From Tautonia plasticadhaerens (GTDB taxonomy: Bacteria; Planctomycetota; Planctomycetia; Isosphaerales; Isosphaeraceae): a stretch of 64,000 nt of DNA. The stretch spans positions 1,178,001 to 1,242,000 of the forward strand of contig NZ_CP036426.1 of NCBI RefSeq assembly GCF_007752535.1, written 5' to 3'. Made by a program: the position numbers and the translations under genes. Positions 6,386 through 17,568 of the stretch are shown here, one piece after another. Position 1 is the first letter of the stretch. Each line of letters starts with the position of its first letter. Below the pieces are notes generated by a model. It made no database searches, was not told where the DNA came from, and saw only the letters and a list, made by a program, of their open reading frames with translations.

Positions 6386-8473
6386 TCATTCGGCGGCGGG
6401 GGGGGCGAGGGTGACGGTGGCTCCGGCGCCTTCGGCGAAGGCGAGGGGGACGGTCCAGGAGTATTGCTTGAGGGTGCAGAAGCCGCCCTCCTCGGCGCAG
6501 GCGAAGATGGAGGCGGAGACCTTCAGGGTCAGCGTGTCTCCGGCGCCGAAGGGCTTCGAGAGGGGGACGGGGAGGGTGAGGGCGTCCCCGGTGGGGAGGG
6601 TGGTGGAGCCGGTGGGGGAGACCTCCGGGCCGAGGGCGTCGGGGGAGTCGGGGGCCTCGATCAGGGTGAGGACGGGGGAGTCGGGCTGGAGCTTGAAGCC
6701 GGGGATCTCCAGGGAGAGATCCACGGTCAGGGCGTCTCCGGGGGCGACCTCCGTCATGGGGAGTTCGATCGGGGTGGCGTTGGCGAAGGTCGGCTTCTTC
6801 TTCGGGGGCTTCGGGGGGCTGACGCCGTCGAGGGAGAGGGTGCGGACCTGCTTCGCGTCGAGGTCGAAGGCCCGGACGAGGTGGTTGTTGGAGTCGGCGA
6901 TGTAGAGGGTGTCCCCGGCCAGGGAGATGCCGCCGGGCTGGTAGAAGCTGGGGGAGGCGTCCGAGGAACCGGCCTCCCCGGTGCCGACCAAGGTCTCGAC
7001 CCGGCGGGCCTCGGGGTCGCAGACCTTGATCTTGTTGTTGTAGGTGTCGGCGATGTAGAGCCGGTCGTCGCCATAGGCCAGGCCGAGGCAGTGCTGGAGG
7101 CGGACGGCGTCGCCGACGCCGTCGAGGTCGCCGAACTCGAAGAGGCCTTGGCCGACGACCGTGCCGACCTGCGGGGCCTGCTCGCCGGAGAGGGAGACGC
7201 GGCGGATGCCGGAGACTTCCGAGTCGGCCACGTAGACGTAGGTGCCGTCGGTCGCCAGGCCGGAGGGCTGGGCGAAGGCGGCATCGCCATACGAGCCGTC
7301 GATGATGTCCTCGCGACCGGAGCCGGCCCAGACGGAGACGAGGTTCGACTCCAGGTCGATCTTCCAGAGCTGGTGCGGCCCGGCCATGGCGATGATCAGC
7401 TCGGAGGTCCCGGGGACGGGGAGGAGGTCCCAGGGGCTGTTCAGGCCCTCGGCCTGGTTGCTGCCCTGGAACGAGCCGTTGCGGCGGTAGGACTGGGTGC
7501 CGTTGCCGGCGATCGTCTCCACGGTCCTCGCCGAGAGGTCGACGCGGCGGATGGCGTGGTTCTCGGTGTCGGTGACGTACAGGGCGTCGCCGACCAGGCA
7601 GAAGCCCTGGGGGCGGTCGAACTGGGCCTGGTCGAAGGGGCCGTCCTTGAAGCCCCGGATGCCGGTGCCGATGGTGGCCTGGCCGGCGCCGTCGAGGTCG
7701 GTGACGACGACCCGGTGGTGGCCGGTGTCGGCGATGAAGAGGCGGTTGTTGGGGGCGTCGGCCAGGACCTTGCCGGGGAAGAGCAGGGGGCCGTCGGAGG
7801 GGCGGTCGCTCTCGGCGTAGACGACGAAGGGGGTCTCGTCGAGTTCCCCGTTGGCTTTGTGCTCCTCGACGAGCTTGCCGATGAAGGCGTCGAGGGTGTC
7901 GTAGTTCCCCTCGCCGCTGACGGAGCCCCGGAAGTTGCCCTTGGCGTCGATGACGGCGAGCGTGGGCCAGGAGCGGACGCCGAACCGGCGCCAGATGGTC
8001 ATCTCGGCATCATTCACGACCGGGTGCTTGACGCCGTACTCGCGGACCTTCTTGCGGATGTTCTCGGTGTCGCGCTCGGCCGGGAACTTGGGGGAGTGGA
8101 CGCCGATGACGACCAGCTCGTCGGCATATTTCCGCTCCAGCTTCTCCAGGTCGGGGATGATGTGGTGGCAGTTGATGCAGCAATACGTCCAGAAGTCGAG
8201 CAGGACGACCTTGCCGATGAGGTCCTGGGAGCGGATCGGCTGGGCGGAGTTGAGCCAGGCGATCCCCCCCTCGAAGAGGTCCTGCGTGGCGCCGACGCCC
8301 TCCTGGCCCTTGAAGGAGGCGGGTACGACCATGTTCATCCTCGCGAAGGGGTCGGCGGGGGCGGGCTCGGCCCCGGTCCGGGCCAGCCAGGCCATGCCGG
8401 CGGCGACGGCGAGCAGGGCGATCGACGCGGCGAGGATCGGGGCCGCCCTTCGTGGGGAACTCGGGGTGGTCAT
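6386..8473 (-). CDS. Membrane-anchored thioredoxin-like/NHL-repeat protein (NHLRC2-like)
   Basis: A 695-residue protein with a signal anchor at about residues 12-32, then a TlpA/thioredoxin-like domain (about 65-210) whose active-site region is YCCINCHHIIPDLEKL. It thus has the CxxC of the NHLRC2 family (CCINC), preceded by a third Cys. A six-bladed NHL propeller follows (repeats such as LFIADTGHHRVVVTDLDG, LYVTDTENHAIRRVDL, LYIADTYNNKIKVCDP and LYIADSNNHLVRAFDL). The C-terminal 150 residues are beta-rich and include ASIFACAEEGGFCTLKQYSW, resembling DsbD N-terminal-type domains. ATG at 8473 has GAGAGG upstream. It is divergent from prs. It is probably an extracytoplasmic redox or scaffold protein; the substrate is unknown. 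Confidence 0.88.
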   Translation of the reverse strand: MTTPSSPRRAAPILAASIALLAVAAGMAWLARTGAEPAPADPFARMNMVVPASFKGQEGVGATQDLFEGGIAWLNSAQPIRSQDLIGKVVLLDFWTYCCINCHHIIPDLEKLERKYADELVVIGVHSPKFPAERDTENIRKKVREYGVKHPVVNDAEMTIWRRFGVRSWPTLAVIDAKGNFRGSVSGEGNYDTLDAFIGKLVEEHKANGELDETPFVVYAESDRPSDGPLLFPGKVLADAPNNRLFIADTGHHRVVVTDLDGAGQATIGTGIRGFKDGPFDQAQFDRPQGFCLVGDALYVTDTENHAIRRVDLSARTVETIAGNGTQSYRRNGSFQGSNQAEGLNSPWDLLPVPGTSELIIAMAGPHQLWKIDLESNLVSVWAGSGREDIIDGSYGDAAFAQPSGLATDGTYVYVADSEVSGIRRVSLSGEQAPQVGTVVGQGLFEFGDLDGVGDAVRLQHCLGLAYGDDRLYIADTYNNKIKVCDPEARRVETLVGTGEAGSSDASPSFYQPGGISLAGDTLYIADSNNHLVRAFDLDAKQVRTLSLDGVSPPKPPKKKPTFANATPIELPMTEVAPGDALTVDLSLEIPGFKLQPDSPVLTLIEAPDSPDALGPEVSPTGSTTLPTGDALTLPVPLSKPFGAGDTLTLKVSASIFACAEEGGFCTLKQYSWTVPLAFAEGAGATVTLAPPAAE

Positions 8474-14776: not shown

Positions 14777-14974
14777 CCCCCTCACCCGGCCTCCGGCCAC
14801 CCTCTCCCCCGAGGACGGGGGCGAGGGTCGGAGTCATTCCCCCTCTCCCCGCGAGCGGGGAGAGGGCCGGGGTGAGGGGGCCGTGCGTCCGGATCAAGCC
14901 CGGTGAATCGTCCGATCCCCCCTCACCCGGGCTTCGCCCACCCTCTCCCTCGCGGACGGGGGCGAGGGCCGGAG
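14777..14974. repeat. Cluster of three dispersed palindromic repeats
   Basis: Three units in tandem: 14777-14833 (CCCCTCACCCGGCC type), 14839-14880 (CCTCTCCCCGCGAGCGGGGA type, nearly identical to 853-892) and 14917-14974 (a variant with GGGCTTCGCCC in its stem). They occupy most of the 346-bp gap between selD (its 3' end is at 14982) and the dehydrogenase gene start. No gene is seen in this gap. Confidence 0.75.
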
Positions 14975-14981
14975 ATGCGGA

Positions 14982-16046
14982 TCAGTGCAGTCGGAGGGCG
15001 ACGCCGTCATCGTTGGGGAGGACCCGGCCGACGACCGCGGCGGCCAGCGTATCGCGGGCCTTGAGTTCGAGGAGCAGGGCGTCGAGGCGGTCGGGGTCGA
15101 CGGCGATGAGCAGGCCGCCGGAGGTCTGGGCGTCGAGGGCGAATTCGAGGCGGAGGGGGTCTGCGGAGGGGGAGAGGTCCCAGTGGGGGCTGACGAAGGA
15201 GCGATTGGTCGCGCTGGCCCGGGTGAAGTTGCGGGGGACGGCCAGGGCCTCGGCCCCCGCGATTAGGGGGAGCGCGGCGAGGTCCAGCTCGATCGTCGCT
15301 CCGGAGCCCCGGGCCATCTCCAGGGCGTGGCCGGCGAGGCCGAAGCCGGTGACGTCGGTCAGGGCGTGGCAGCCCCCGGAGGCGAGCAGGGCGTCCCGGG
15401 CGTCGGCGTTGAGGCGGACCATACCCTCGACGGCGCGATCGAGCACCGCGGCGGGGCAGCGTCGCTTCTTGGCGGCGGTGGTGACGAAGCCGGTCCCGAG
15501 GGGCTTGGTGAGCACGAGCCGGTCGCCGGGGCGGGCGCCGGCGTTGGTCAGCAATTCGTCGGGGTGGACGAGGCCGGTCACGCTCAGGCCGAACTTGATC
15601 TCGGCGTCCCGGACGGTGTGGCCGCCCAGGACCGAGGCCCCGGCCGACGCCACCCGCTCGGCGGCGCCGGCGATGATCCGGCCGAGGATCTCCAGGGGGA
15701 GGCGGTCGTCGGGGAAGGCGGCGATGTTCAGGGCCGTCAGGGGGCGGCCGTTCATGGCGTAGACGTCGGAGAGGGCGTTGGCGGCGGCGATCCGGCCGAA
15801 GGTGTAGGGGTCGTCGACGACGGGCGGGAAGAAGTCGACCGTCTGGACCAGGGCGAGGTCGGGCGCGATGCGATAGACCCCCGCGTCGTCGCTGGTCTCG
15901 GTGGCGACGAGCAGGTCGGCGGGGCGCCCGGGCCCGGTGGTGGTGGTCAAGCCGCGCAGGACCTGCGCGATCCCCTCGGGGGGGAGCTTGCCCGCTCACC
16001 CGGCGCAGTTGGCGTAGTCGGTCAGTCGCTTGCGTCGTCCGAACAT
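14982..16046 (-). CDS. selD: Selenide, water dikinase containing a predicted selenocysteine
   Basis: A 354-residue SelD, which makes selenophosphate from selenide and ATP for Sec-tRNA and 2-selenouridine synthesis. The frame starts at ATG 16046 (MFGRRKRLTDYANC) and meets TGA at 15996-15998, codon 17, within CAG-U-AGKL. This is the position of catalytic Cys17 of E. coli SelD, with the essential Lys three residues on. Beyond the TGA the family is complete: TVDFFPPVVDDPYTFGRIAA, LGGHTVRDAEIKFGLSVTG, LTKPLGTGFVTTA, LTDVTGFGLAGHALEM and LDAQTSGGLL. A SECIS-like hairpin lies at 15953-15969. Reading the TGA as a stop would give a truncated gene from TTG 15950 lacking the active site. It lies 90 bp after the SelW-like gene, probably in one operon. 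A genuine pseudogene is unlikely because the rest is intact. Confidence 0.9.
15953..15969 (-). promoter_or_regulatory. Predicted SECIS hairpin of selD
   Basis: In the mRNA, CGCGCAG-GUC-CUGCGCG forms a perfect 7-bp stem with a GUC tri-loop. The loop G lies 33 nt after the UGA, within the range known for bacterial SECIS elements (roughly 16-37 nt). A G in the first loop positions is the known SelB recognition feature. The GCAGGUC core resembles the apex of the E. coli fdhF element (recollection). Confidence 0.65.
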
Positions 16047-16136
16047 CGGTCGGGGGGCCTCCGGGGCCGGGCGTCCTCGCCGGCCCGAGCGTCGGGGGCG
16101 GGACGCGGCTCGACCGGCGTCGGAGCCCCGCCGGCC

Positions 16137-16376
16137 TCAGCCGTCGAGCAGGGTGCCGACCTCGTCGAGGAGCGTCCCCTCGTCGGGGAATTCGCCGGTC
16201 TGGAGCTTGGAATAGAGGAGTCGCTTGCCGGCGGTCAGCTCGAAGCAGCCTCCCTTGGAGGGGACGAGCGTCAGCCGGCCGATCTTCCGCTTGAAGCGGT
16301 CCAGGAGCTTCGCCGTCAGACTGACGGCCTGGGGCTCGTAGCCTCAGAGGGCGCAGTATTCGAGGGTCAATTCCAT
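16137..16376 (-). CDS. SelW-like (Rdx family) selenoprotein
   Basis: A 79-residue thioredoxin-like protein of the SelW/Rdx family, missed if TGA is read as stop. ATG at 16376 has a strong AGGAGG upstream. The product starts MELTLEYCAL-U-GYEPQA: the TGA at codon 11 (16344-16346) forms the CxxU redox motif exactly where the family has CxxU or CxxC. The remainder matches the family: a helix, VSLTAKLLDRFKRKIGRLTL, then VPSKGGCFELTAGKRLLYSK and TGEFPDEGTLLDEV. The stop is a normal TGA at 16137. A SECIS-like hairpin follows the Sec codon. It lies between an AI-2E-type permease gene (44 bp upstream) and selD, all on the same strand. It probably acts as a small cytosolic thiol/selenol oxidoreductase; the partner is unknown. 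Confidence 0.88.
16305..16337 (-). promoter_or_regulatory. Predicted SECIS hairpin of the SelW-like gene
   Basis: The RNA has an inner 7-bp stem GCCGUCA/UGACGGC closed on a GUC tri-loop (16312-16328), with outer GAGC/GCUC pairing. The loop G is 22 nt after the UGA. Stem length and tri-loop are the same as in the selD hairpin although the stem sequences differ, which argues for selection on structure. Confidence 0.68.
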
Positions 16377-16419
16377 CTCGATCCTCCTGGGGTTCGGGGT
16401 CGGGGGGGATGCGGCGCGA

Positions 16420-17568
16420 TCACGGACGGCCGGGGCGTCGGGCCAGGAGCCGGCGACGGGCCGGGGGGGGATCGGGGGAGGGATCCGGGGCGGTCGCGGA
16501 GTCGTCGAGCGGGTAGGCGAGGCTCATCAGCTCGGCCCAGTGCCTCAGGGGGTGGAGGTGCTGGAAGACGAGCTTGACGCTGACGGTGATGGGGATGGCC
16601 AGGATCAGGCCCATCAGGCCCCAGAGGAACCCCCAGAACATGCAGGCGATCAGGACGGTCGTGCCGTTGAGGTCGAGCGACCGGCCCATGACGTAGGGCA
16701 TGACGAGGTAGCCCTCGACGGTCACGATGGCCAGGAAGATGGCGGTGACGATCAGGCAGTCGGCGATCGACCCCCGCTGGGCGAGCGTCACGAGCACGGC
16801 CATCGCCCCGGCGGCGACGTTGCCGATGTAGGGGATGTAGTTCGTCAGGCCGGCGAAGAGGCCCAGCGGCACGGCGAAGTCGATCCCCAGCAGCAGCATG
16901 GCGACGGCCGTCGCCGCCCCGAGCCCGATGTTCAGCACCGTCCGCGCGAGCAGGTAGGCCCGGATCTTCCGGGTCACGTTCTTGAGCGTCCGCTCCATCG
17001 CCTTCGACTCGCCGGACTCGACCGTGATCAGGTGGACCAGCCTCGGGACGATCAGGTCCCCTTCGACCAGCAGGAAGAGGACGAGGAAGAGGACCACGAC
17101 CCCGTGGCCGACCCAGGCGGTCAGGTCGGTCAGGCGATAATTCAGGGAGTTGAGCAGGCGCTCGCTGTTGGTGTCGCCGAGGATGCTGATCGTGCCCGGC
17201 TCGGGGAGGATGTTGGCGAGGTAGGGGTGGTCTCGGATGGCGTCGTTGGTCAGGTGGCTGAGCTTCGAGGCGAGCCGCTCCACGTCGGTCGGGAACGTCT
17301 TGGCCGCCTGCACGAGGCTCTCGGCCGTCAGGCTCGCGGTGTAGAGCCCGGCCACCGCCATCAGGACGAACAGGATGACCGCCGCCCCGAACGGGCCGAC
17401 CGGCAGCAGCCTCCGGAGCAGGTGGGTGGCGGGGGAGAGCAGGCTGGCCAGCAGGATCGACAGGGCGATCGGGATCAGGATCGGCTTGAGCAGGTAGAGC
17501 GCCGCGACGATGCCGAGCGTGGCGAGGACCGTCAGCTGCGGGCTGTTCGATCGCGCTGTCTCGTCCAT
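16420..17568 (-). CDS. AI-2E family transporter (TqsA/PerM-like)
   Basis: A 382-residue integral membrane protein with about seven to eight hydrophobic segments. ATG at 17568 is preferred (GAGGG upstream). The family layout is clear: paired N-terminal helices (LTVLATLGIVAALYLLKPIL, then ALSILLASLLSPATHLLRRL), a central soluble stretch, and a C-terminal half with GLFAGLTNYIPYIGNVAAGA and VMGRSLDLNGTTVLIACMFW, the conserved AI-2E block. Family members export small molecules or act in Na+/H+ exchange; the substrate cannot be read from sequence. It lies directly upstream of the SelW-like gene and may be co-transcribed, but nothing links it to selenium. Confidence 0.88.
   Translation of the reverse strand: MDETARSNSPQLTVLATLGIVAALYLLKPILIPIALSILLASLLSPATHLLRRLLPVGPFGAAVILFVLMAVAGLYTASLTAESLVQAAKTFPTDVERLASKLSHLTNDAIRDHPYLANILPEPGTISILGDTNSERLLNSLNYRLTDLTAWVGHGVVVLFLVLFLLVEGDLIVPRLVHLITVESGESKAMERTLKNVTRKIRAYLLARTVLNIGLGAATAVAMLLLGIDFAVPLGLFAGLTNYIPYIGNVAAGAMAVLVTLAQRGSIADCLIVTAIFLAIVTVEGYLVMPYVMGRSLDLNGTTVLIACMFWGFLWGLMGLILAIPITVSVKLVFQHLHPLRHWAELMSLAYPLDDSATAPDPSPDPPPARRRLLARRPGRP

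Follow-up and report, generated by a model that had tools for sequence, protein, structure and literature searches.

Bacterial proteins related to selenoprotein W are a named family of prokaryotic selenoproteins, SELENOW-like, in the relevant passages of four papers (PMC1794560, PMC2398784, PMC9312934, PMC13188914). Metagenomic sequences have also yielded Prx-SELENOW operons, in which, as described in part of PMC13188914, a SELENOW-like gene is likewise paired with a selenoprotein gene; there the partner is a peroxiredoxin, whereas in the locus described here it is the selenophosphate synthetase SelD. Selenocysteine (Sec) is used by planctomycetes, as reported for the Porphyra-associated planctomycetes P1 and P2 and for Isosphaera pallida, which has a full set of Sec-insertion genes; unlike the present locus, the proteins named in the main-text passages of that report are FdhA and FmdB, not SelW (PMC4807772). 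Genes of this kind may be overlooked: a passage on epsilonproteobacterial annotation states that SelW genes had been wholly missed (PMC4607533). The passages on operons in PMC5322559 do not name SelW, and we found no mention of an rdx-selD pair in the main-text passages searched in the open-access literature. SELENOW-like proteins and Sec-containing SelD are both already known, and the pairing of rdx with selD is the part of this locus worth following.

The locus lies in a 64,000-nucleotide stretch of the Tautonia plasticadhaerens genome, which we call the window. A sequence-only reading had proposed that a SelW-like selenoprotein gene is hidden there by an in-frame TGA. The frame, which we call rdx, opens on the minus strand with an ATG at 16376-16374 and closes with a TGA stop at 16139-16137 (Table 1). 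Its features were as proposed: an AGGAGG precedes the ATG, the frame spans 79 codons, and the TGA at codon 11 is its sole interruption. Our translation agreed with the earlier one, giving a product that begins MELTLEYCALUGYEPQ, continues with ...GGCFELTAGKRLLYSK... and ends in GTLLDG, with the motif C8-A-L-U11. The plus strand across 16137-16376 is likewise open. The frame is nevertheless not a chance one, because the Pfam Rdx profile spans the TGA with a score above its cut-off and TIGR02174 is also passed. These results confirmed both the rdx frame and the Rdx/SelW identity of 16376-16137. The earlier reading therefore held for the frame, the SelW family and the assignment of Sec, but it was incomplete: it gave no strand, missed the neighboring Sec-type selD and included no search for a Sec insertion sequence (SECIS).

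Table 1. Features of the rdx-selD locus, in window coordinates
Feature	Position	Strand	Basis or remark
rdx, predicted SelW-like selenoprotein gene	16137..16376	minus	79 codons + stop; profile matches, fold
rdx codon 11, in-frame TGA, predicted selenocysteine	16344..16346	minus	CxxU with Cys8; TGA in 73/76 Rdx loci
AGGAGG, ribosome-binding site by its place	16383..16388	minus	6 nt upstream of rdx ATG
rdx predicted bacterial SECIS apical hairpin	16312..16328	minus	GCCGTCA-GTC-TGACGGC; loop 22 nt after TGA
selD, selenide water dikinase	14982..16046	minus	TIGR00476 E=4.8e-107; split by TGA
selD in-frame TGA, predicted selenocysteine	15996..15998	minus	NCAGUAGKL; N-terminal loop
selD predicted SECIS apical hairpin	15952..15970	minus	TCGCGCAG-GTC-CTGCGCGG; loop 33 nt after TGA

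Profile searches were run on the rdx product with Cys substituted at the TGA. Pfam Rdx (PF10262) matched residues 3-73, across the TGA, with an E value of 3.3e-17 (62.9 bits against a cut-off of 22.6), and TIGR02174 scored 51.9 bits against a cut-off of 34.2, so the proposed Rdx/SelW membership was borne out by homology on both sides of the TGA. NF041051, a narrower equivalog model for Campylobacter, gave 66.3 bits and its cut-off of 88 was not reached. Among named Rdx relatives, those nearest to the window gene are Planctomycetota records. Sequence matches in the PDB comprised seven distinct entries, mostly bacterial SelW-related or hypothetical proteins, with the C17orf37 protein (2ljk) among them. 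A structural model predicted from 38 aligned sequences had a mean pLDDT of 93.8, with a strand at residues 2-8 and a helix from residue 14, and placed the CxxU motif after the first strand. In a Foldseek comparison with the PDB, the model matched 2obk (E=1.3e-7, TM 0.90) and 2fa8 (TM about 0.9), and mouse SelW (2npb) appeared further down the list (E=5.7e-4). The best fold matches are thus bacterial SelW-related proteins, and the predicted model has the thioredoxin-like fold of SelW.

The rdx product has in common with bacterial SELENOW-like proteins its domain, its length, the CxxU motif, a TGA at the position of U, the hairpin and the predicted fold. The planctomycete form differs in carrying the sequence U[NG]YEPxAVSL, which is partly common to homologs from Poribacteria and Chloroflexota, and in often standing before selD. 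TGA-containing Rdx genes with a similar hairpin also occur outside Planctomycetota, in Chloroflexota (L221 and L223-L225, from Bellilinea and relatives, including a copy in Bellilinea caldifistulae GOMI-1, L224) and in Poribacteria (L206, L208, L209, L211 and L214).

To follow the TGA across relatives, we searched 397 class genomes for Rdx. A match was obtained in 170, and 150 places in 136 genomes were listed; genomes of the family absent from this listing were added later, and about 25 of the 170 matched genomes lie outside all counts given here. One TGA is carried at 131 of the 150 listed places, in 122 genomes, and TGA-containing Rdx is accordingly present, among the matches listed, in at least 122 of the 397 class genomes, plus ten more genomes of the family. 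From the family we took 20 stretches, and from the listed places of other families we selected 60. These 80 stretches and the window make 81 loci, 76 of which contain Rdx; the other five (L062 and L064-L067) had been fetched for their SelD. At the Sec codon, 73 have TGA, two have TGC and one has GGT. Within the family, a TGA copy is present in each of the 19 genomes in which Rdx was matched.

If the TGA were a true stop, the frame would be a pseudogene, a product of chance or a sequencing error. Some relatives do look degraded or lack the Sec codon. In a genome of the same genus (L058), Rdx has the TGA and an open frame, but Cys8 is replaced by Arg and the SECIS loop has changed from GTC to GGC; this copy, which adjoins a TGA-containing selD, looks like a decaying one. 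At a more distant locus (L106), whose genome contains selB, the Sec codon is replaced by GGT (Gly). A true stop is nonetheless very improbable, given the retention of TGA in 73 of 76 loci and the pattern of substitutions beyond it. Downstream of the TGA, pN/pS between the window gene and 14 genes of the same family ranged from 0.25 to 0.57, with a median of 0.35 and a maximum of 0.68 when all 105 pairs within the family were compared; the codons 3' of the TGA are under purifying selection. The sequence-only reading had named a frame broken past the TGA in related strains as what would count against it, and the 75 other Rdx genes included no such case; most of them came from profile matches, a source that favors intact copies. 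The synonymous constraint on the hairpin and the Sec machinery in the genome, both described below, also argue against a true stop. In one further Rdx copy (L177:3001-3240), a second TGA replaces Cys8 to give UAMU; this gene is either broken or encodes a UxxU protein.

The predicted SECIS hairpin of rdx begins 15 nt after the TGA and has a GUC loop, a stem of 7 bp and a free energy of -9.9 kcal/mol for the hairpin alone. A bacterial SECIS model described in part of PMC13188914 specifies a 3-9 nt loop with G in its first two positions, a stem of 4-16 bp, a distance of 16-37 nt from the UGA and a minimum free energy of at most -7.5. The rdx hairpin falls within this model. The same is true, however, of 235 of the 1,084 TGAs in the window, so a single hairpin proves little alone. 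A tighter form (GTY loop, stem of at least 7 bp, 19-33 nt), drawn up after the rdx and selD hairpins were both known, is matched by four of the 1,084 TGAs, two of which are those of rdx and selD. The other two overlap at 8012-8016 on the minus strand, share one 7-bp hairpin with a GTT loop and lie outside the reading frame of the AhpC-TSA match there; the SECIS-type hairpin near 8016 is probably due to chance. A search of 14900-16500 against Rfam gave five weak, unrelated matches and no SECIS.

Comparison of the 73 TGA genes provided a further line of evidence. Ser19 is encoded by AGT in 67 of 68 Ser codons, compared with 23% of Ser codons gene-wide, Val18 is GTC in 57 of 59, Thr21 is ACG in 39 of 41, and Leu20 is TTG or CTG in 70 of 73. 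No comparable codon bias was found in these genes at codons 14-16 and 24-25. Across the 73 genes, 91.0% of the hairpin cells are paired, versus a mean of 68.2% and a maximum of 72.8% in 500 synonymous randomizations, and all seven pairs can form in 37 genes, versus at most nine under randomization. When codons were instead re-dealt between sequences, 89.0% of cells were paired, with a maximum of 89.8% in 500 trials and up to 37 genes with seven pairs. Because pairing barely drops in this test, the signal is mostly one of conservation, to which covariation adds little; RNAalifold, applied to 28 sequences, returned five pairs, one of them with a two-sided change. The codons under the rdx hairpin are constrained beyond the needs of the protein. 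A folding scan of the 73 genes was a less sharp instrument than the synonymous codon test: mean z was weak, about -0.9 to -1.2 for stretches starting at codons 9-17 and down to -1.8 within the family, versus mostly 0 to -0.6 elsewhere.

The hairpin also separates TGA from Cys homologs. In a set of 80 named loci, which shares some contigs with the set of 81 and from which L177, with its second TGA, was set aside, at least six of the seven pairs are present in 53 of 64 TGA genes versus 1 of 15 Cys genes, with means of 6.1 and 3.3 pairs, respectively. The sole Cys gene with at least six pairs (L188) is from a planctomycete and looks like a recent change from TGA to TGC.

The sequence-only reading had suggested searching the genome for selA, selB and tRNA-Sec, and all three are present. 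The 9.4-Mb genome holds a tRNA-Sec with anticodon tca (found with ARAGORN), selB (348.5 bits against a cut-off of 242) and selA (513 bits). The last two lie side by side on one strand, with their matches ending 52 nt apart. With selD, the genome has the full selA, selB, selC and selD set of the Sec-decoding trait. These genes bear on a further alternative, in which UGA 11 is read through by a near-cognate tRNA as Trp or Cys. The existence of Cys homologs lends this some plausibility. However, a dedicated decoding system is at hand, most TGA homologs retain the hairpin, which falls short of six pairs in 14 of the 15 Cys homologs, and a CxxU motif with Sec in this position is listed for SELENOW-like proteins in the relevant parts of PMC9312934 and PMC13188914. 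We regard Trp or Cys read-through as the least probable of the readings considered, below even a true stop. That TGA 11 is read as Sec, as originally proposed, is supported by tRNA-Sec, selA and selB, by the conserved TGA and by the hairpin. Taken as a whole, the evidence makes it very likely that the locus is a two-gene selW(rdx)-selD cluster in which UGA 11 is decoded as Sec under the direction of the hairpin, giving a CxxU redox protein.

Sec-decoding genes accompany TGA-containing Rdx across the class. At an E value of 1e-65 or lower, selB was found in 107 of the 122 listed class genomes with TGA-Rdx. The remaining 15 might have been taken as an anomaly, TGA-Rdx without SelB, but a second look recovered SelB, in full or in part, from six of them, bringing the total to 113 of 122. 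In four (G034, G050, G062 and G296), SelB exceeded the cut-off once its pieces were summed; G207 has two collinear pieces, and in G298 a piece of 161 residues lies where a contig ends. The nine genomes in which selB was not found are all drafts of at least 100 contigs. One of them, G351, is rated 99% complete, and its Rdx lies 2.9 kb from the start of a contig. A contig break can explain the missing selB, because another genome of this genus, G355, has selB 2.9 kb past Rdx on the corresponding side. Outside the 122, G044 has a SelB piece of only 71 residues. In G034, G050, G062, G207 and G296, SelB is in two pieces with a gap after the first ~165 residues, as if an insert sits there, and in at least four of these five genomes both pieces lie within one frame.

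Rdx is followed, on its own strand, by selD, which probably starts with the ATG at 16046-16044 (MFGRRKRL), 90 nt from the rdx stop. A genome-wide search with the SelD profile found one TGA inside selD. Because the gene is broken by this in-frame TGA, predicted to encode Sec, a standard reading would start selD internally. In its TIGR00476 match and its N-terminal-loop TGA, the neighbor is like known Sec-containing SelD proteins; the only unusual point is that it adjoins rdx. Of the 32 selD genes in our set of loci, 28 had a Sec-site motif that a pattern search could read, with TGA in 24 and Cys codons in four; of the other four genes, three have RAGC, the Cys form, and one is masked. A sigma-70 promoter scan gave 0 sites, and a terminator scan gave none. 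The shared strand, the 90-nt gap and the gene order kept in relatives are those of an operon, and we infer that rdx and selD are co-transcribed.

Of the 19 family genomes with Rdx, 15 have rdx immediately preceding selD in the same orientation; the exceptions are G084, G107 and G175, from one genus, and G167. Outside the family, the arrangement occurs in 12 of the 58 TGA loci fetched, and in 12 of 64 named TGA loci, a set that overlaps the 58. Among listed class genomes with TGA-Rdx and a free-standing SelD, a count that left out rows with fused-type SelD (frames of about 750 aa) and unlisted SelD matches, the genes are adjacent in 39 of 77 and apart in 38. The adjacent pairs fall in four families (f1, f3, f6 and f8). 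Adjacency goes with the Sec form of SelD: it was seen with 35 of 53 TGA-containing SelD genes versus 4 of 24 without TGA (p=7e-5, kinship ignored), and, with ten unlisted family genomes added, with 40 of 58 versus 5 of 28 (Fisher p=9e-6, kinship ignored), one of the adjacent non-TGA genes in either count (of the four and of the five) being unreadable at the Sec site. One of the ten added genomes, G107, has no SelD match. Rdx is also found less than 7 kb from selB on the same strand in five genomes (G006 [L069], G389, G355, G282 and G154) of the 91 of 122 for which the distance was computed, and in G006 the gene order is rdx-selD-selB.

This arrangement raises the possibility that the SelW-like protein acts beyond general redox chemistry, with a role inside selenium metabolism, for example as a selenium carrier to SelD or as a reductant of the Sec of SelD. 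The recurrence of the pair in the family and in four families of the class, its association with Sec-SelD and the proximity of Rdx to selB in some genomes would all fit such a role, and the selenium donor to SelD is described as not settled in part of PMC13188914. On the other hand, Rdx is apart from selD in 38 of the listed genomes and in the four family exceptions, G024 and G048 have a Sec-SelD and no Rdx, and adjacency may reflect only shared selenium regulation or common descent. We consider a role inside selenium metabolism unlikely, though deserving of attention. In a more specific version, the SelW-like protein would serve through its Sec as a carrier or reductant in the selenium pathway, delivering reduced selenium to the Sec of the neighboring SelD, so that the two selenoproteins would contribute to making the selenophosphate that each of them requires; this version is slightly more doubtful still.

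The Sec system of this genome does not appear to be devoted to rdx and selD. Two tandem AhpC-TSA genes (L139, contig C1 498367-499225, minus strand) have TGA in a UxxC motif, DWUPFC and SWUAGC, with the TGAs at C1 499105 and 498537, and an AhpD-like (CMD) gene with CPYU (L140, C1 7273276-7273413, minus strand) has a TGA at C1 7273290. In-frame TGA occurs in 2 of 38 AhpC-TSA matches and 1 of 5 AhpD-type matches. For each of these three genes, a 7-bp hairpin with a GUC or AGUU loop can be drawn 21-25 nt past the TGA, picked among several possible. The best fold of the SWUAGC gene is a different hairpin, and in the TlpA-like TGA gene, folding the 57 nt past the TGA gives a best structure from which the GUC hairpin is absent. 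The two AhpC-TSA genes are probable tandem selenoproteins, and all three genes look like selenoprotein genes. With these three, some five or more genes seem to be served by the Sec system, and the AhpC-TSA and AhpD-type TGA genes led us to reject a minimal selenoproteome limited to SelW and SelD. The FdhA model gave eight matches in the genome, none over the cut-off and none with a TGA. A separate CMD-family match (L141, C1 3317721-3317906, plus strand) contains an in-frame TAG and is either a pseudogene or an assembly error.

For the two-gene selW(rdx)-selD cluster, we propose the following mechanism. The tRNA-Sec and SelB would decode UGA 11 of rdx as selenocysteine, with the GU-loop stem-loop 22 nt downstream directing the insertion. 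The product would be a 79-residue thioredoxin-like CxxU protein, most likely engaged in thiol/selenol redox chemistry through the opening and closing of a Cys8-Sec11 selenylsulfide. SelD, itself predicted to bear Sec, would supply the selenophosphate for Sec synthesis.

With its predicted recoded UGA, rdx is a clear example of a gene hidden in this way, and it is widespread in its lineage. Its recurrent place before Sec-type selD offers a testable clue to what bacterial SelW does and to the route by which selenium reaches SelD. If the SelW-like protein did prove to be a carrier or reductant for SelD, bacterial SelW would gain a function.
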